From Candidatus Hydrogenedentota bacterium (GTDB lineage: Bacteria > Hydrogenedentota > Hydrogenedentia > Hydrogenedentales > SLHB01): a stretch of 37,379 bases of DNA. Positions 5,711 to 22,889 of the stretch are shown one piece after another (the stretch's first letter is position 1; every line of letters starts with the position of its first letter). Location: positions 1 through 37,379 of the forward strand of contig JACRLJ010000102.1 in the NCBI GenBank assembly GCA_016215105.1. The letters are read 5' to 3'. The notes under the pieces are model-generated. The model had not been told where the DNA came from and made no database searches. It was given only the letters and a program-made list of their open reading frames with translations. The translations under genes and the position numbers were made by a program.

Positions 5711-6130
5711 CAACGGATTTCCAAGAGGAGCTTATATTTTCCTCTCGAAAACGTGACTGCTAACGTGCCATTCTAAGCCGAGAGCTCCGGGACGGAGCGG
5801 TTTGAAAGGAAACACCGGGTGAAGGCGCCGTGGCCGGGAGGGCGAATGTCCTCATTCGCCGGTCTGGGCGCATCACCCCGTGCCGTTTTGCGGCCAATCA
5901 TATGCTTGAGACCTCACCCAGCCGGGTGGATCAGCATGGAACTAGAGTAGCGACCTACAAATAGGCCGGCTTGTCCCCCTGCACGAAGCGCGAGTTTAGC
6001 CCCGGTTAGGGGCGGAAGACGGTAGCCCACGGCGTGAGCCGTGGGACCAGACCACAGCCAAACGCCAGCCCCGTAGGGGCGAAAGAGCTTTCGTCCCATA
6101 TCGGCCAGGGGCGCCGCGTCAAGAAGCCCA
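5711..6130. repeat. Hairpin-rich intergenic region
   Basis: There is no plausible gene here. The stretch holds a string of short inverted repeats: AGAGGA/TCCTCT (5724-5745), GCTCCG/CGGAGC (5784-5798), GGCGAATG/CATTCGCC (5841-5860), GCCCC/GGGGC (5999-6013), CCCACGGC/GCCGTGGG (6026-6045) and GCCCC/GGGGC (6068-6080). The first may terminate the methyltransferase transcript. The others look like REP-type palindromes of several different families gathered in one place. Confidence 0.6.
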
Positions 6131-13401: not shown

Positions 13402-14815
<1,414 letters not shown>

Positions 14816-15504: not shown

Positions 15505-15683
15505 CGCGACGAGTTCCACCCCTCGCGTCCGAAAACAGGCGCTCCCGGCCCTCTTTCGCAACTCCCTTCGCCCCATTGACTTATCCCCCCTTCCCCCTTG
15601 TTTCGAAAACCTGCGCAGTACGCGCCCTCGCCCAGATTCTCCCGCCGACCAGCGTTCCCCCATCATCACGATCAAACGCAGCT

Positions 15684-15719
15684 ATCCCATCCATCCCATA
15701 GCTCCCATTACTCCCATCG
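15684..15719. repeat. Four tandem nonamers in a long intergenic region
   Basis: Units of nine bases with core TCCCAT: atcccatcc, atcccatag, ctcccatta, ctcccatcg. The surrounding gap (15505-15943) contains no convincing gene, is C-rich in its first third, and otherwise shows nothing I can identify. Confidence 0.6.
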
Positions 15720-15943
15720 GACAGCCCTATACCCGAAACAAGTGCCCACATGTATAGAGGGTATTTGGCGAATCGCCTCGAATCGGCGAACTGCCGGGTA
15801 TCACCCGAAAAGCGATCCGAGCGGCGCGATCGGCAAACTTGATTCTCCTGCGCCATCCTCATAGACTCCGCATCATTCGCGATCACCTCCATGGAATCGT
15901 TTCCCATGGAGCAAAGAAGTTCCTCGGTCCGTCACGATGGGGT

Positions 15944-15972
15944 TTGTTTGAATCGGACAACGGCGGTACAAT
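15944..15972 (+). promoter_or_regulatory. Promoter of the amidoligase cluster
   Basis: TTGTTT (15944-15949), 17-bp spacer, TACAAT (15967-15972). The expected start point is about ten bases before the ATG of the C39-like gene, and no ribosome-binding site is visible, so that gene would be translated from a very short or leaderless message. The -35 box is identical to that of gdhA. Confidence 0.55.
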
Positions 15973-15989
15973 TTTCACCATAACGAATC

Positions 15990-16700
15990 ATGGAAACGCG
16001 ACTACAATTCGAGATTCTTCGCCAACCGGACGGCACGACATGCGGCCCGACGTGTCTGCACGCAGTGTACGCATTCTACGCCGACAAAATCGGCTTGCCG
16101 GAGGTCATCGAGGAAACGCACACTCTGGAAGAGGGCGGCACCTTGGCCGCTTTCCTCGGCTCGCACGCCTTACGGCGCGGCTACGCCGCTACCATGTACA
16201 CGTACAACCTGCAACTCTTCGATCCAACGTGGTTCAACGCCAAGCCAGTTGACCTGCGGGCTAAGCTCGAAGATCAACTCGAACACAAGAAAGATCGCAA
16301 GTTGCGCAAGGCCACGCGCGGTTACCAGGAGTTTCTGAGCCTAGGCGGGGAAGTCCTGTTCGAGGACTTGAACGGCCGGCTGATTCGCTCCTATCTCGAC
16401 AAGGGTATTCCCATACTGACCGGTCTGAGCTCGACGTTCTTGTATCGTGGCGCCCGCGAATTCGGAATGGACGCCGAAGACGACGACGTGCGCGGCGAGC
16501 CGTCGGGCCATTTTGTTGTCTTGTGCGGCTACGACCGAAAGACGCGCGAGGTCCTGGTCGCCGATCCGCTCTATCCAAACCCGTTCGCGGACAATCATTT
16601 GTACGCCGTTTCGATTGACCGGGTTATCTGCTCGATACTGCTGGGTATCCTAACCTACGACGGCAATCTCTTGATTATCGAACCGCGCCGGAAACCATAG
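15990..16700 (+). CDS. C39-like (papain-fold) peptidase of an amidoligase cluster
   Basis: A 236-residue cytoplasmic protein with no signal peptide or membrane span. The N-terminal LRQPDGTTCGPTCLHAVYAFY carries the catalytic cysteine in a QxDxxxCGP context typical of peptidase family C39. The C-terminal GEPSGHFVVLCGYDRKTREVLVADPLYPNP supplies the catalytic His and Asp. In the family these domains cut double-glycine leaders, but stand-alone forms next to RimK-like ligases probably process or recycle the ligation product. It is the first gene of a four-gene run: eight bases separate it from the ATP-grasp ligase. All three catalytic residues are present, so it should be active. Confidence 0.85.
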   Translation: METRLQFEILRQPDGTTCGPTCLHAVYAFYADKIGLPEVIEETHTLEEGGTLAAFLGSHALRRGYAATMYTYNLQLFDPTWFNAKPVDLRAKLEDQLEHKKDRKLRKATRGYQEFLSLGGEVLFEDLNGRLIRSYLDKGIPILTGLSSTFLYRGAREFGMDAEDDDVRGEPSGHFVVLCGYDRKTREVLVADPLYPNPFADNHLYAVSIDRVICSILLGILTYDGNLLIIEPRRKP

Positions 16701-16708
16701 GACACACC

Positions 16709-18187
16709 ATGCCGATTCTGATCGTGGTTAACAATCCCCAAAGCTGGCCGCTCCAAATTCCCGGCGGCGAGGTCATCTCCGCGCGAACCTACCTCACCGA
16801 GCCGGCCTATTCGGACATGCGCAACGCCAAGGTGTTCAATCTGTGCCGCTCCTATAGCTACCAGAGCATCGGCTATTACGTGTCGCTGCTGGCCATGGCG
16901 CGCGGTCACAAACCCCTGCCCAGCATTTCGACCATTCAGGACCTGAAGTCCCTGTCCATCATCCGAACGGTTGGAGACGAGTTGGAGGAATTGATCCAGC
17001 ACAGCCTCCGCCCGATCCAGTCCGACTCGTTTACGTTGAGTATCTATTTCGGACGTAACGTCGCCAAACGCTACGACCGGCTCAGTTCGCATTTGTTCAA
17101 ACTGTTTCAGGCCCCATTCTTGCGCGCTGAGTTCCGCTACGACAAGGACGACCAGCTCTGGACGCTGCATAACATCAGTCCCATTTCCGCCAACGAAATT
17201 CCGCAGGAGCTTTTCCCGTTCTTGATCGAGGCGGCGACGGAATACTTCGAGAGTTCGCGATGGAGCGTGCGCAAGAAGTCCATGCCCCGCTATGACCTGG
17301 CGATCCTCACCAATCAGGATGAGGAAGAGCCTCCATCCGACGAACGCGCGCTGCAATACTTCGTGCGGGCCGCTAAGAAGCTGGGCCTCGGAGCTGAATT
17401 CATTGACAAGGAAGATTACGGGCAGCTTCCTCAGTTTGACGCGCTGTTTATTCGCGAAACCACCCAAGTCAACAACCACACTTACCGTTTCGCCCGGCGC
17501 GCGGCGGCGGAAGGTTTGGTGGTCGTGGACGACCCCGAGTCCATCGCCAAGTGTACCAACAAGGTGTATCTGGAGGAGTTGCTTGGCCGCTACGATGTGC
17601 CCAAACCGAGGACCTTAATCGTCCACCGCGATAACATCGACGCCATACCCGAGCAGGTCGGACTGCCGTGCATCTTGAAGGAGCCGGACAGTTCATTCTC
17701 GCAGGGGGTCTACAAGGCCGAGGATGATTCGAGCCTGCGCACCATCGTGTCTCAGTTACTCGACGAATCCGAACTGATTATCGCCCAGGAATTCATGCCC
17801 ACTCCCTACGATTGGCGGGTCGGCATTTTTGACCGTCAGCCCATGTACGTGTGCAAGTACCACATGGCTCCGAAACACTGGCAGATACAGCGGACCGATC
17901 ACGTCGGAAAGATTCACTTCGGAAAGGTCGAAACGTTCCCATTGGACAAGGCGCCCGCCCAAGTGGTGCGAACGGCATTGCGCGCCGCCAACTTGATCGG
18001 TGACGGACTCTACGGCGTGGACCTGAAACACATTGGGCGGAAAACCTATGTCATCGAGATTAACGACAATCCGAGCATTGAAGCCGGTGTGGAAGACGCG
18101 GAACTGAAAGACGAACTGTACATGCGCATCATGTCGGTGTTCCTCAAGCGCATCGAACAACGCAAAGAAGCCCGGAACGGCCGATGA
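16709..18187 (+). CDS. RimK-like ATP-grasp ligase with N-terminal RLAN domain
   Basis: A 492-residue amide ligase. Residues ~1-190 match the RLAN domain that precedes a subset of RimK-like ligases (PILIVVNNPQSWPLQIPGGEV, an ARTYL segment, RVCN-like FNLCRSYSYQSIGYYVSLLA). Residues ~200-480 are ATP-grasp: KCTNKVYLEELL, PCILKEPDSSFSQGVYKAED for nucleotide binding, IAQEFMPTPYDWRVGIF, and the metal-binding YVIEINDNPSIEAG. Relatives join an amino group to a carboxylate, often glutamate, using ATP. AGGA lies six bases before the ATG. Its stop overlaps the start of the next ligase gene (ATGA), so the two ligases are made together. The actual substrates are unknown. Confidence 0.92.
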   Translation: MPILIVVNNPQSWPLQIPGGEVISARTYLTEPAYSDMRNAKVFNLCRSYSYQSIGYYVSLLAMARGHKPLPSISTIQDLKSLSIIRTVGDELEELIQHSLRPIQSDSFTLSIYFGRNVAKRYDRLSSHLFKLFQAPFLRAEFRYDKDDQLWTLHNISPISANEIPQELFPFLIEAATEYFESSRWSVRKKSMPRYDLAILTNQDEEEPPSDERALQYFVRAAKKLGLGAEFIDKEDYGQLPQFDALFIRETTQVNNHTYRFARRAAAEGLVVVDDPESIAKCTNKVYLEELLGRYDVPKPRTLIVHRDNIDAIPEQVGLPCILKEPDSSFSQGVYKAEDDSSLRTIVSQLLDESELIIAQEFMPTPYDWRVGIFDRQPMYVCKYHMAPKHWQIQRTDHVGKIHFGKVETFPLDKAPAQVVRTALRAANLIGDGLYGVDLKHIGRKTYVIEINDNPSIEAGVEDAELKDELYMRIMSVFLKRIEQRKEARNGR

Positions 18188-19416
18188 CCGAAACCAAACC
18201 CCTGGGCCTATTCGAGCGGATCGGCGTTGAAATTGAATATATGATCGTGGACCGGTCTACGCTGGCCGTACGTCCAATCACCGACAAAGTCATCTGGAGC
18301 GTTGCCGGCGAGTATCTCAATGAGGTTGAACGCGGCGTCATCTCGTGGTCAAACGAACTGGTGCTTCACGTCATCGAATTGAAGACCACCAATCCGGTCC
18401 CTTCCACCGCCGGCCTGACCACCGCGTTTCAGAAGAGCGTCGCCGAGATCAATGCGCTGCTGGCCCCTCTTGACGCCTGCCTGATGCCGACCGCCATGCA
18501 CCCCTGGATGGACCCCTTCCGCGAAATGGTCTTGTGGCCGCACGACGCGAACGAGATCTATGACGCGTTCAATCGCATCTTCAATTGCCAGGGACACGGT
18601 TGGTCCAACCTGCAAAGTGCGCATCTGAATCTTCCCTTCGCGAACGACGAGGAGTTTGCCCGGCTGCACGCCGCCATCCGTTTGGTCTTGCCCATCCTGC
18701 CCGCTTTGGCCGCGAGTTCTCCCGTGGTCGAGGGACGGCGGACCGGCCTGATGGATAACCGCCTCGAAGCCTATCGCACCAATTCCCAGCGGATTCCCTC
18801 GATCACGGGAAGAGTGATTCCGGAGCCGGTTTTTTCCATGGCCGGCTATCAGAAGCTCATCCTTCAACGCATGTTCGCCGATATTGCTCCCTATGATCCC
18901 GAGGGCGTCCTCCAGTATGAATGGCTCAATGCCCGTGGCGCGATTGCCCGCTTCGAACGCAACACGATCGAGATCCGCGTGCTGGACACGCAGGAATGCC
19001 CCGAGGCCGATCTGGCGATCATCGAAGTCATCATCGCGCTGCTCAAGGCGCTGACGGAGGAACGCTGGGTTTCCCTTGACGAGCAGAAGGCGTGTACCGT
19101 CGAGTCACTCGAAACCATCTTTCTTCAAACCGTCGAGGACGCCGATGCGGCCGTCATTCATGATCCGGCTTACCTGCGCGTATGCGGATTGCCTGAAACG
19201 AAGGCATGTACCGCAGGTGAATTGTGGCGGGATCTTGCGAAGCGCCTGTTCGCGCACAATGGGATTTCGCCCGCGCTGACACGCGTGCTCGAGCACGGCT
19301 CCCTTGCGCGGCGTATAGTCGAGGCCCTGAATAACGAAGGCTCGAACGACAGGATGAATGCGGTTTATGGAGAGTTGTGCGCTTGTCTTGCCGAAGGAAA
19401 GATGTTCCTCGCCTAG
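18184..19416 (+). CDS. GCS2-type glutamate-cysteine-ligase-like carboxylate-amine ligase
   Basis: A 410-residue member of the glutamine-synthetase-fold GCS2 group. FERIGVEIEYMIVD is the first glutamate-rich metal motif, and LKTTNPVPS, HPWMDPFREM, the histidine-bearing NCQGHGWSNLQSAHLNLPF and NTIEIRVLDTQECPEAD follow. These enzymes ligate an amino acid to a glutamate carboxyl using ATP. The gene is translationally coupled to the RimK-like ligase, so a product with at least two amide bonds is a fair inference. Its TAG stop lies inside the CTAG terminus of a repeat element, which separates it from the amidohydrolase. It is not assigned as gshA because no glutathione synthase gene lies next to it and its partner is a RLAN ligase. 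Confidence 0.9.
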   Translation: MTETKPLGLFERIGVEIEYMIVDRSTLAVRPITDKVIWSVAGEYLNEVERGVISWSNELVLHVIELKTTNPVPSTAGLTTAFQKSVAEINALLAPLDACLMPTAMHPWMDPFREMVLWPHDANEIYDAFNRIFNCQGHGWSNLQSAHLNLPFANDEEFARLHAAIRLVLPILPALAASSPVVEGRRTGLMDNRLEAYRTNSQRIPSITGRVIPEPVFSMAGYQKLILQRMFADIAPYDPEGVLQYEWLNARGAIARFERNTIEIRVLDTQECPEADLAIIEVIIALLKALTEERWVSLDEQKACTVESLETIFLQTVEDADAAVIHDPAYLRVCGLPETKACTAGELWRDLAKRLFAHNGISPALTRVLEHGSLARRIVEALNNEGSNDRMNAVYGELCACLAEGKMFLA

Positions 19417-19509
19417 AGGCGCGGCCAGAAAGCCTCCGCTTACCAAAACCCGACAAAAGCGAGCGCCGGTGTTAAATAACTTACAGGTGCTTTCTCGCCG
19501 AACTCCTAA
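19413..19509. repeat. CTAG-bounded repeat, long form (copy 4)
   Basis: 97 bp. It starts CTAGAGGCGCGGCCAGAAAG and ends in a decayed tttctcgccgaactcctaa. The first 83 bp match the copy at 28352 with six differences, all transitions. The left CTAG provides the stop of the GCS2 gene. The last part overlaps the likely start region of the amidohydrolase. Confidence 0.85.
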
Positions 19510-20203
19510 GGGGAATCGTCTGATTCTCACCTGCGAGCACGGCGGCAATCGGATACCATCCGCCTACGCCGATCTCTTTTCTAAAGCGGGCGCGGAGTTG
19601 ACGAGCCATCGCGGCTATGATCCCGGCGCCCTCGATCTTGCCAAGGCGCTCGGAAGCGCGTTGCGAGCGCCTCTTGTCTTCTCAACGGTATCGCGGCTGC
19701 TGGTCGAGTTGAACCGGACTGCGCGTCATCCCGCCTTGTTTTCGGAGTTCACCCGAGGCCTGACTCCCGCTGAAAAGGACAAGCTGCTTCGCCGGTACTA
19801 TTGGCCGCACTGGCGCATGATCGAAAGCCTGATCGCTGAATCTCTTGCTCAAGGCATGCGCGTGACACACATCGGTGTGCATACGTTTACACCGGTCCTT
19901 CACGGCGTCGAACGAACGGCGGATATCGGGCTGCTATACGACCCTGCCCGGCCGCGGGAGAAGGCATTCTGCGTGCGCTGGCAGGAGGCCCTGCGCAAGT
20001 CCGGGCTCGAGCTTCGCGTTCGGCGCAACGACCCCTATCGCGGAGCCGCCGACGGTCTGACCACACACCTGCGCAGACACTTCGGTTCCAGCCGCTATAT
20101 CGGTGTCGAACTCGAAGTGAACAACCGATTTGCCGTTGATGACGCGCCAACGTGGCGAGCGATCCAACGCGCCATTACTCAAAGCCTTGATTCGCTACTG
20201 TAA
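19487..20203 (+). CDS. N-formylglutamate amidohydrolase-like zinc enzyme
   Basis: About 238 residues. LILTCEHGGNRIPSAYADLF is the hallmark N terminus with zinc-binding Glu/His. It is followed by HRGYDPGALDLAKAL, LVELNRTARHPALFSEFTRGL, the HIGVHTFTPVL histidine motif and GVELEVNNRF. Family members hydrolyse N-formyl- or N-acyl-glutamate and related amides; here it may process or degrade the ligase product. The start is uncertain. GTG 19487 used here lies inside the repeat element with no ribosome-binding site, another GTG is at 19469, and a CTG at 19520 directly before ILTC has AAGGGGA six bases upstream and gives the family-like start. The element has apparently replaced or moved the original start region. 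Confidence 0.85.
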   Translation: MLSRRTPKGNRLILTCEHGGNRIPSAYADLFSKAGAELTSHRGYDPGALDLAKALGSALRAPLVFSTVSRLLVELNRTARHPALFSEFTRGLTPAEKDKLLRRYYWPHWRMIESLIAESLAQGMRVTHIGVHTFTPVLHGVERTADIGLLYDPARPREKAFCVRWQEALRKSGLELRVRRNDPYRGAADGLTTHLRRHFGSSRYIGVELEVNNRFAVDDAPTWRAIQRAITQSLDSLL

Positions 20204-20703: not shown

Positions 20704-21162
20704 ATGTCGCTTCCCATGCCTGACTCGACAACGCCATCCCTCGAAGACTTTGAGATCGTTACCCGGCACATGGTCATGGAAAAGGATCTCAACCCGTTCG
20801 GCAATCTCTACGGCGGCATGATGCTCAGTTGGCTTGATGAAGGAGCGGCGCTGTATGTGATGGAGAAGATCGGATACGCGAATTTCGTCACGGTCAGCCT
20901 GGACAATGTGAATTTCAAAGCGCCCGGTCACCGGGGAGACGCCATCGTGTTGTACTGCCGTGTCCTGCGGACGGGGCGGTCGTCAATCGTCGTTCAGTCG
21001 AAGGCTCTGGCGCACGAGCCCATCACTGGCGCCAAGCGGGACATTATCACGTGCCAAATCACCTACGTTTGCCTGATGAATGAACGGCCCTACCCCTATT
21101 TCCAAAGTGCGGAGTACGCTGAGTGGCGCACTCGGAGCGCCGCGGAGAATCCAGCCCTCTAA
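20704..21162 (+). CDS. Hotdog-fold acyl-CoA thioesterase
   Basis: 152 residues, a normal length for single-hotdog acyl-CoA thioesterases of the YciA/ACOT type, which release free fatty acid and CoA. The motif MEKDLNPFGNLYGGMMLSWLDEGA is the conserved N-A/N-x-x-G-x-x-GG-x-x-x-x-x-x-D catalytic helix region with the essential Asp. VTVSLDNVNFKAPGHRGD is the second conserved strand pair. A methionine four codons later is an alternative start. The stop overlaps that of the convergent coiled-coil gene by two bases, so the two transcripts meet end to end. Confidence 0.88.
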   Translation: MSLPMPDSTTPSLEDFEIVTRHMVMEKDLNPFGNLYGGMMLSWLDEGAALYVMEKIGYANFVTVSLDNVNFKAPGHRGDAIVLYCRVLRTGRSSIVVQSKALAHEPITGAKRDIITCQITYVCLMNERPYPYFQSAEYAEWRTRSAAENPAL

Positions 21163-22889
21163 CTTACCGACGCCGCGTCCGCGGATTGAGGGTAGACGCG
21201 CGCAACGGCGGCTGCCACATCCGATGGGGTTGCGACGACTGGCTCGACAGTGCGCCCACTGGCGCGTTCGACGTCTTCGATCGCAATCAGGTCCAACGGA
21301 TTGGCCATCGCTAGAACCAGGAAGTCGCCCGTGGCGCGAATGGGGATGCACGTGTGCAACTGGACTAGACGCGGTGTAACCAGTCCGGCAGCGCTCGGAT
21401 CAACGTTCTGCGCGGTGAGCCGGACGAAATCCAGCTTGCATTGATTCGCCAGCGCTTGCGCAACAATCTCTTCGCTGACGTACCCATTCTCCACCAGGAG
21501 GCTTCCCAAGTGCCGTTGAGGCGACTTCCGCTGCTCTTCAAGCGCGTTTTCGAGCTGCTCTTGGTCGATGTGGCCGGCGCTCAGCAGCAATGTGCCCAGT
21601 TGTTGCTTCTTCATATCGCGCTCGAAACTGAGCCCGCCGCCCGCCGGCGTGTCCGAAACGCCGCCCGACGGCGGCCTCGGCGGCGCGGCCTCGGCGCGGC
21701 GAAGCGAGTCCACCTCGGCGCGCAGTTGCGCTAGTTCTCTCTGCGCCGCTTCGGTGTCTTTCAGCGCCTCCGCCAATTGTAGCGCGAGCGTCGATTTTGC
21801 GCCTCGCGAGGTCTCTTCCGTGAGCCGCGTCTCCAACATGTTCGCTCGTGTCGCTTCGCTTTGCAGGCGCATCCGGAGATCGTCCGCATCGCTGGATGCG
21901 GTCTTCGAGGCCTCCAACGCCGCTTGGGCCTTGGCCAAATCCGCGCGCGCGATCTCCAGTTCCCACGCTGATGCGCGTTCGGATGTGGCCGCCTCATCCG
22001 CGCGCGTCTTGGCGGCCGCCAAATCCTCGCGTAACGCGGCCGCCTCCTGCTCGATAAGTTTGGCCCGTTCCAGCGCCTCCTGCGGCGCCTTCGCGGCTTC
22101 TACTTCCTTCTCCAATGCTTCAATGCGCCGTTGCGCGGTTTCGTGGTTCGCTGTGTGCTTTGATACCTCGGCCTCCAGCTCCGCAATACGCGCCCGAAAG
22201 CTCTCGGCGCCCGTAGCGTGTTCCGTCAGCTTCGCCTCGAGCTCGGCGGTGCGGTTCTGAGCCGCTTGGGCGGATGCCGCTGATTCGGCGAGAGCCTGCT
22301 CCAGTTGCGCTACCCGCTGCTTGGAAGCCTGCGCCGTCTCGGTGCGTTCCGTAAATGTCTGCTCGAGTTGCGCAATGCGATCCTGAGCGGCGCCCGCCTT
22401 TTCCTGGAGTTCCTTGGTAAGCTGATCGAGCGAGGCTGCTTTCTGCTGCGCCGCCTGCAACGCGTCTGCCCGCTCCGCCAGAGTCCGCTGAAGCAGTAGT
22501 TCGCGCTCTTTGGCGCTCGCCAGCGCTTGCGCGTTTTCGGACTGATTCTTCTCGATGACGCCAAGTTGCTGTCTTACTTGCTCGATGGCCTCGTTGCGTT
22601 CATCCAACAGCCGCTCCAACTGGGTGACGCGCTGCTTCGATTCGACTTGGGATTCCTCGCCCTTCTGAAGGGATTGCTTGATCGAACCCAGAGACTCCAA
22701 CGCAGCGTCCAGCGCGGAATCATCTCGAGCAAAGCGCGCCGCGACATCAGCGGCGAGTGAGCGCATTTCCTGCCGTGCGCGCGTGATCCGCGCCTCGAAC
22801 GCCTCTCGGGCGCCTGCCGTATCGCTGCGCCACTGAGCGATCTTGGATTCTACGTTCGTAATTGCGTCGTTGCTGGCCGCGTCAGTCAT
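21159..22889 (-). CDS. Long coiled-coil protein with C-terminal MshEN (GspE N-terminal) domain
   Basis: 576 residues. Residues ~10-410 are almost uninterrupted coiled coil in repeating blocks of roughly 28 residues (for example RIAQLEQTFTERTETAQ, RVAQLEQALAESAASAQ, RTAELEAKLTEHATGAE). A short Pro/Gly linker (PPRPPSGGVSDTP) leads to a MshEN-type domain at ~430-570: QLGTLLLSAGHIDQEQLENAL, LGSLLVENGYVSEEIVAQALA, and LVLAMANPLDLIAIEDVERASG. MshEN domains often bind cyclic-di-GMP and normally head type II secretion or pilus ATPases; here no ATPase follows. A cytoplasmic scaffold or second-messenger sensor is inferred. A strong promoter lies upstream. Confidence 0.88.
   Translation of the reverse strand: MTDAASNDAITNVESKIAQWRSDTAGAREAFEARITRARQEMRSLAADVAARFARDDSALDAALESLGSIKQSLQKGEESQVESKQRVTQLERLLDERNEAIEQVRQQLGVIEKNQSENAQALASAKERELLLQRTLAERADALQAAQQKAASLDQLTKELQEKAGAAQDRIAQLEQTFTERTETAQASKQRVAQLEQALAESAASAQAAQNRTAELEAKLTEHATGAESFRARIAELEAEVSKHTANHETAQRRIEALEKEVEAAKAPQEALERAKLIEQEAAALREDLAAAKTRADEAATSERASAWELEIARADLAKAQAALEASKTASSDADDLRMRLQSEATRANMLETRLTEETSRGAKSTLALQLAEALKDTEAAQRELAQLRAEVDSLRRAEAAPPRPPSGGVSDTPAGGGLSFERDMKKQQLGTLLLSAGHIDQEQLENALEEQRKSPQRHLGSLLVENGYVSEEIVAQALANQCKLDFVRLTAQNVDPSAAGLVTPRLVQLHTCIPIRATGDFLVLAMANPLDLIAIEDVERASGRTVEPVVATPSDVAAAVARVYPQSADAASVS

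Follow-up and report, generated by a model that had tools for sequence, protein, structure and literature searches.

What do two ligases of different folds and two hydrolases, encoded side by side, make together, and which of them form the core of the system? The question is raised by four open reading frames that lie nearly abutting on one strand at 15990-20203(+) of the window, by which we mean the whole 37,379-nucleotide stretch analysed, a complete contig of a 6.7 Mb genome in 171 contigs. A preliminary description had placed a four-gene cluster here, and the reading frames, their strand and their families agree with it, as all four products pass the Pfam gathering scores. The parts are:

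15505..15989, no strand: upstream intergenic region (485 nt without a recognised gene), without a conserved small ORF and without a sigma-70-type promoter match on the + strand
15990..16700, + strand: C39-like (papain-fold) cysteine peptidase, 236 aa (Pfam Peptidase_C39_2/Peptidase_C39; conservation; AF2; Foldseek)
16709..18187, + strand: RLAN-RimK ATP-grasp ligase, 492 aa (Pfam RLAN 8e-47, RimK 4e-9; AF2; Foldseek)
18184..19416, + strand: GCS2-type carboxylate-amine ligase, 410 aa (Pfam GCS2 5.5e-28; ATGA coupling; conserved columns)
19469..20203, + strand, probable GTG start: FGase-family amidohydrolase (Pfam FGase 5.5e-25; 2odf; start codon reading)

The stop codon of the RLAN-RimK gene overlaps the start codon of the GCS2 gene in an ATGA at 18184-18187, read directly from the sequence, as the preliminary description had also noted; its claim that the cluster has its own promoter is not supported, no sigma-70-type site having been found on the + strand of the intergenic region. 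The FGase reading frame as opened at ATG 19358 encodes 281 aa and overlaps the GCS2 gene by 59 nt. This frame is probably over-extended, and GTG 19469 is the likelier start, since the related proteins start a little ahead of the TCEHGG motif and the resulting length fits better.

All four enzymes are apparently active, as judged from catalytic residues that are at least 95% conserved across the 40-94 relatives scored for the four proteins, in keeping with the earlier reading of intact motifs: Q12/C18/H174/D192 in the C39-like peptidase, K285/K324/R370/D438/E450/N452 in RLAN-RimK, E16/E18/E65/H106/R193/E263 in GCS2 and H61/H171/H175/E251/E253 in the FGase. The C39-like peptidase has no signal peptide evident by eye. 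Its AF2 model (pLDDT 93.7) has the C39 fold with the Q-C-H-D active site of double-glycine leader peptidases, which head its Foldseek matches, followed by pseudomurein endoisopeptidase and the primitive phytochelatin synthase Alr0975. The peptidase is a stand-alone protein with neither an ABC transporter fusion nor a double-glycine substrate peptide, and no transporter or small ORF recurs nearby; it has no Pfam match to the Phytochelatin family (C83), and the fold likeness to Alr0975 is weak. The solved chain nearest to the FGase is 2odf, the uncharacterised Atu2144. Though above the Pfam FGase threshold, this protein gave no match at E 0.001 to any NCBIfam model, and so none to a named one for HutG-type N-formylglutamate amidohydrolase.

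The RLAN-RimK ligase carries an RLAN domain at about residues 25-167 (159 bits, cut-off 25) and a RimK ATP-grasp domain at about residues 284-459 (36.7 bits, cut-off 21). With the whole model as the Foldseek query, RLAN and RimK domains together (pLDDT 90.6, pTM 0.69), the best matches were RimK, ArgX, LysX and D-Ala ligases. RimK, ArgX and LysX attach amino acids of the glutamate family to a carboxylate, which speaks for the peptide-making reading given below. In Pseudomonas aeruginosa RimK, R64, R189 and N262 contact poly-glutamate, and R8 is another such contact (PMC10092738). R64, R189 and N262 align with the conserved R249, R370 and N452 of RLAN-RimK, which suggests glutamate as a substrate; as R189 and N262 take part in ATP-grasp catalysis generally, the match does not prove glutamate specificity. 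The alignment made for structure modelling held window and genome loci only, with plasmid-record sequences left out. By eye, R8 seems to have no conserved counterpart, its position falling outside the computed alignment.

The preliminary description had named ordinary S6-modifying or glutathione activity of the two ligases as a finding that would count against it, and by curated cut-offs neither ligase is such an enzyme. RLAN-RimK reaches 24.5 bits against the NCBIfam S6 ligase model (cut-off 331) and 21.4 against the glutathione synthase model (cut-off 272), and RLAN stands where RimK has the pre-ATP-grasp domain Rimk_N. The GCS2 protein (98.6 bits in Pfam, cut-off 21) aligns with YbdK and plant glutamate-cysteine ligase with matching motifs, and it scores 59.7 against its best NCBIfam match, TIGR02050 (cut-off 176.4), below the cut-offs of every named subfamily and glutamate-cysteine ligase. 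Window-type GCS2 proteins have the signature C-x-G-H-G-W-x-N-L-Q-S-x-H-L-N. Neither GSH-S_ATP nor Glu_cys_ligase is matched in the window genome, which also lacks a second GCS2, and a strong glutathione synthetase (over 130 bits) occurs in 7 of 26 genomes with RLAN-GCS2 clusters. Being found both with and without glutathione synthetase, the module appears independent of glutathione and no simple replacement for it.

Relatives were found by an alignment-based scan with one genome per species, a single-protein query having given none. There were at least 587, and the best 80, from which phyla were read, span more than ten: Planctomycetota, Verrucomicrobiota, Bacteroidota/Balneolota, Desulfobacterota, Nitrospirota, Pseudomonadota, Acidobacteriota, Spirochaetota, Sumerlaeota, Omnitrophota and Ignavibacteriota are among them. 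Co-occurrence had been set beforehand as a test of the cluster. Of the 65 loci whose flanks are long enough to be fully covered, 38 carry the complete set, with order and strand unchanged, and 16 have C39-RLAN-GCS2 without FGase, so that the first three genes are present in 54, far beyond chance; RLAN stands alone in five and in other combinations in six. Because the loci were picked by RLAN protein similarity, these proportions describe that clade rather than all RLAN proteins. The median gaps between genes are 2, -4 and -4 nt, and the opposite orientation was found in none. In a mirror-tree comparison, the distance matrices obtained for the four proteins resemble one another (r=0.57-0.69; permuted maximum 0.24), a correlation that partly reflects shared species history and so backs co-inheritance rather than interaction. 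On these data, the four genes form a genuine module with wide conservation.

Its members are not equal, and the genes form a hierarchy, RLAN > GCS2 > C39, with FGase optional. Genomes with a solitary RLAN gene lack window-type GCS2 and C39 genome-wide, one RLAN+GCS2 carrier lacks C39 genome-wide, and many C39-RLAN-GCS2 carriers, including members of the window's own family, lack a window-type FGase genome-wide; two other C39-RLAN-GCS2 carriers encode the FGase elsewhere in the genome. At fully covered loci, FGase lies beside RLAN only where GCS2 is present (39/59 versus 0/6, Fisher p=0.003). From these absences and this association, the ligases are the core, C39 is their usual partner and FGase is an accessory tied to the GCS2 form. 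In the sample of the host phylum, RLAN occurs in 9 of 68 genomes; besides the window genome, four of the nine carry C39-RLAN-GCS2 with 57-66% identity, a fifth relative has RLAN-GCS2 with the C39 end at the contig edge, and three more distant relatives have RLAN-GCS2 only. FGase is present in three of the 68, the window genome included, and is absent from the window's nearest relatives. A family-member genome without an RLAN gene (G064) encodes an FGase 47% identical to that of the window, at L018:48-746(-). The preliminary description had taken two makers and two breakers of amide bonds to suggest a regulated cycle, for instance of a storage or tag molecule. All four enzymes are indeed there, and the symmetry of such a cycle is weakened by the accessory status of both hydrolases.

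The two ligases are joined outright in some bacteria. In a fusion search of 294 genomes from the phylum of Blastopirellula marina (Planctomycetota), 75 of which have RLAN, the RLAN-RimK and GCS2 proteins form one open frame of 972-993 aa without internal stops in four genomes, all from this one phylum sample:

L136:4387-7368, - strand: RLAN-RimK-GCS2 fusion, Planctomycetota genome
L137:4053-7034, - strand: RLAN-RimK-GCS2 fusion, Planctomycetota genome
L138:2439-5357, + strand: RLAN-RimK-GCS2 fusion, Planctomycetota genome
L139:5751-8675, + strand: RLAN-RimK-GCS2 fusion, Planctomycetota genome

Pfam finds RLAN, ATP-grasp and GCS2 in that order in two of the four, those scanned in the right frame. 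The presence of both ligases in a single polypeptide argues that they catalyse consecutive steps on one substrate, and is the strongest evidence for a shared substrate. In the fused proteins the Cys of the CxGHGW signature is replaced by T or V.

At other loci the RLAN ligase lies beside GNAT acetyltransferases, some of them fused to DUF3335, a C39-like domain. It seems from these arrangements that the amine-acylating enzyme is swapped (GCS2 versus GNAT) while ligase and peptidase stay. The neighbourhood expected of RLAN-RimK ligases, a papain-like peptidase with either GCS2 or GNAT, is thus what surrounds the gene. At L141:5753-7447(+) and L142:5168-6817(+), RLAN and the RimK-like ATP-grasp are two separate adjoining genes, followed at L142 by a GNAT gene.

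No recurrent fifth gene was found among the neighbourhoods of the relatives; the flanking genes are random, with no family recurring more than two or three times in 59 loci. The preliminary description had asked for a short peptide gene nearby, and no convincing conserved small ORF or peptide gene was found flanking or upstream of the operon. This lack of a recurrent neighbour indicates that the operon is not accompanied by a gene for a dedicated substrate, be it a protein or a ribosomal peptide. A 21-locus cluster of short upstream ORFs was considered as a peptide precursor and set aside, as it looked like low-complexity chance.

We infer the chemistry, the substrates, the nature of the product (a small molecule and not a tag on a protein) and the roles of both hydrolases as follows. 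The two ligases would probably make one small peptide step by step. GCS2 would form an amide between a glutamate-type carboxylate and the amine of a small substrate, and RLAN-RimK would add an amino acid to a carboxylate of the same substrate, in either order; that both act on one molecule is suggested by their occurrence as one polypeptide in some bacteria. The cytoplasmic C39 enzyme may then cleave or transpeptidise the ligase product, and the FGase, where present, may hydrolyse an amide of the N-acyl-glutamate type and so release a terminal glutamate. A small gamma-glutamyl-type peptide is favoured because such a pairing, in which ligases of two folds work on the same substrate, one of them GCS2-type and the other adding an amino acid to a carboxylate, follows the logic of glutathione synthesis. 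We therefore lean, with about even confidence, towards a self-contained non-ribosomal peptide module of glutathione-like logic, whose short product, probably with a gamma-glutamyl cap, is processed by C39 and, where present, by FGase. The solitary RLAN ligases in genomes without GCS2 and C39 count against this explanation, as they imply that an RLAN ligase is able to act without these partners.

The main rival is protein tagging: the two ligases would attach an amino acid or a peptide to some protein whose gene lies elsewhere, much as RimK does with ribosomal protein S6, and C39 and FGase would take this tag off again. Among solved structures RimK stands closest to the ligase domain, and its poly-glutamylation of RpsF is countered by the protease RimB (PMC12239564), a precedent for a writer and an eraser; two hydrolases of unrelated folds would suit the latter role. 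Against tagging stand the score far under the S6 ligase cut-off, the replacement of Rimk_N by RLAN, the frequent genome-wide absence of FGase, the carrier without C39 and the lack of a conserved protein gene nearby, and we regard it as rather unlikely. Another reading is an alternative route to glutathione or another known low-molecular-weight thiol. GCS2 would then act as glutamate-cysteine ligase and RLAN-RimK as glutathione synthetase, and C39 would be a transpeptidase resembling phytochelatin synthase. This would suit the window genome, which has a single GCS2 and neither of the usual glutathione families, as well as the Alr0975 match and the alignment of GCS2 with YbdK and the plant enzyme. 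This route is distinctly improbable in our judgment, given the GCS2 scores far under every glutamate-cysteine ligase cut-off, the seven of 26 cluster genomes that also hold a strong glutathione synthetase, and a C39 fold that matches double-glycine peptidases better than phytochelatin synthase.

By analogy, the product might be a compatible solute or nitrogen-storage peptide made with a logic like that of N-acetylglutaminylglutamine amide, its cap being gamma-glutamyl here and acetyl in the GNAT variant. As to role, this is a special case of the gamma-glutamyl peptide module; the pairing of RLAN with GCS2 or GNAT is the swap of amine-acylating partners it would call for, but no osmotic genes recur nearby, and we hold it to be highly improbable. 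Hardly likely at all is a ribosomal-peptide (RiPP, graspetide-like) cluster, with C39 cutting off a leader peptide and the ligases introducing cross-links. In fold, C39 comes closest to double-glycine peptidases, and ATP-grasp enzymes are described as makers of graspetides (PMC8939145); set against these are the lack of a conserved small ORF upstream and of a recurrent transporter or other fifth gene.

The gamma-glutamyl peptide module can also be placed among known systems. RimK with RimB has the ATP-grasp fold and some poly-glutamate contacts in common with it (R249, R370 and N452 here) but differs in its Rimk_N domain, whereas the window ligase has RLAN, lies far under the S6 ligase cut-off and is partnered by GCS2 and C39 rather than RimB. 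Glutathione biosynthesis, by GshA/GshB or by GshF as a fusion, likewise pairs a gamma-glutamyl-type ligase with an ATP-grasp ligase, sometimes in one protein; the window enzymes come from other families, and in the RLAN fusions the ATP-grasp comes first. The co-occurrence of the module with true glutathione synthetase likewise indicates a separate pathway. YbdK, EgtA and plant GCL share the GCS2 fold and the motifs GxELE, ELxT, HP and SP...R with the window GCS2, which differs in falling under all named subfamily cut-offs and in having its own signature. In the GNAT-DUF3335 and RLAN-RimK pairs of Azospirillum and others, RLAN-RimK adjoins a C39-like domain as it does here, and a GNAT acetyltransferase occupies the place of GCS2.

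Iyer et al. in 2009 reportedly described gene neighbourhoods in which the same RLAN ligase family stands with GCS2 and a papain-like peptidase, and predicted that they make small peptides; the order of the four genes, FGase as an option and the fusion of RLAN-RimK with GCS2 may or may not feature there. In the literature searched we found no paper on an RLAN-RimK/GCS2/C39/FGase cluster, experimental work included. The cluster belongs to a known, uncharacterised kind, to which the fusions and the gene hierarchy are added here. Compact, kept from Planctomycetota to Bacteroidota and needing no fifth gene, the operon offers a well-defined way in to a bacterial metabolite, and the fusions, together with the accessory status of FGase and C39, single out the ligases as the enzymes of first interest, with a shared intermediate predicted. 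More tentatively, and with less than even confidence, the product may be new in its chemistry and shared across phyla: a peptide with a gamma-glutamyl cap that acts as a cofactor, stress metabolite or small tag, made by two consecutive ligases or, in some bacteria, by a single bifunctional synthetase, with GNAT- and gamma-glutamyl-capped versions of one RLAN scaffold.

Elsewhere in the window, an NADP-specific glutamate dehydrogenase is encoded upstream of the operon at 13472-14815(+); it was considered as an operon partner and rejected, as such a gene is near only 2 of 96 loci. A defence system was likewise set aside, with no PADLOC match. An Acido-Lenti-1 RNA (Rfam RF01687, 46.3 bits), which hints at the lineage of the host, lies at 5998-6045(-), and a gene at 21159-22889(-) encodes a long coiled-coil protein with an MshEN (c-di-GMP-binding type) domain at its end.
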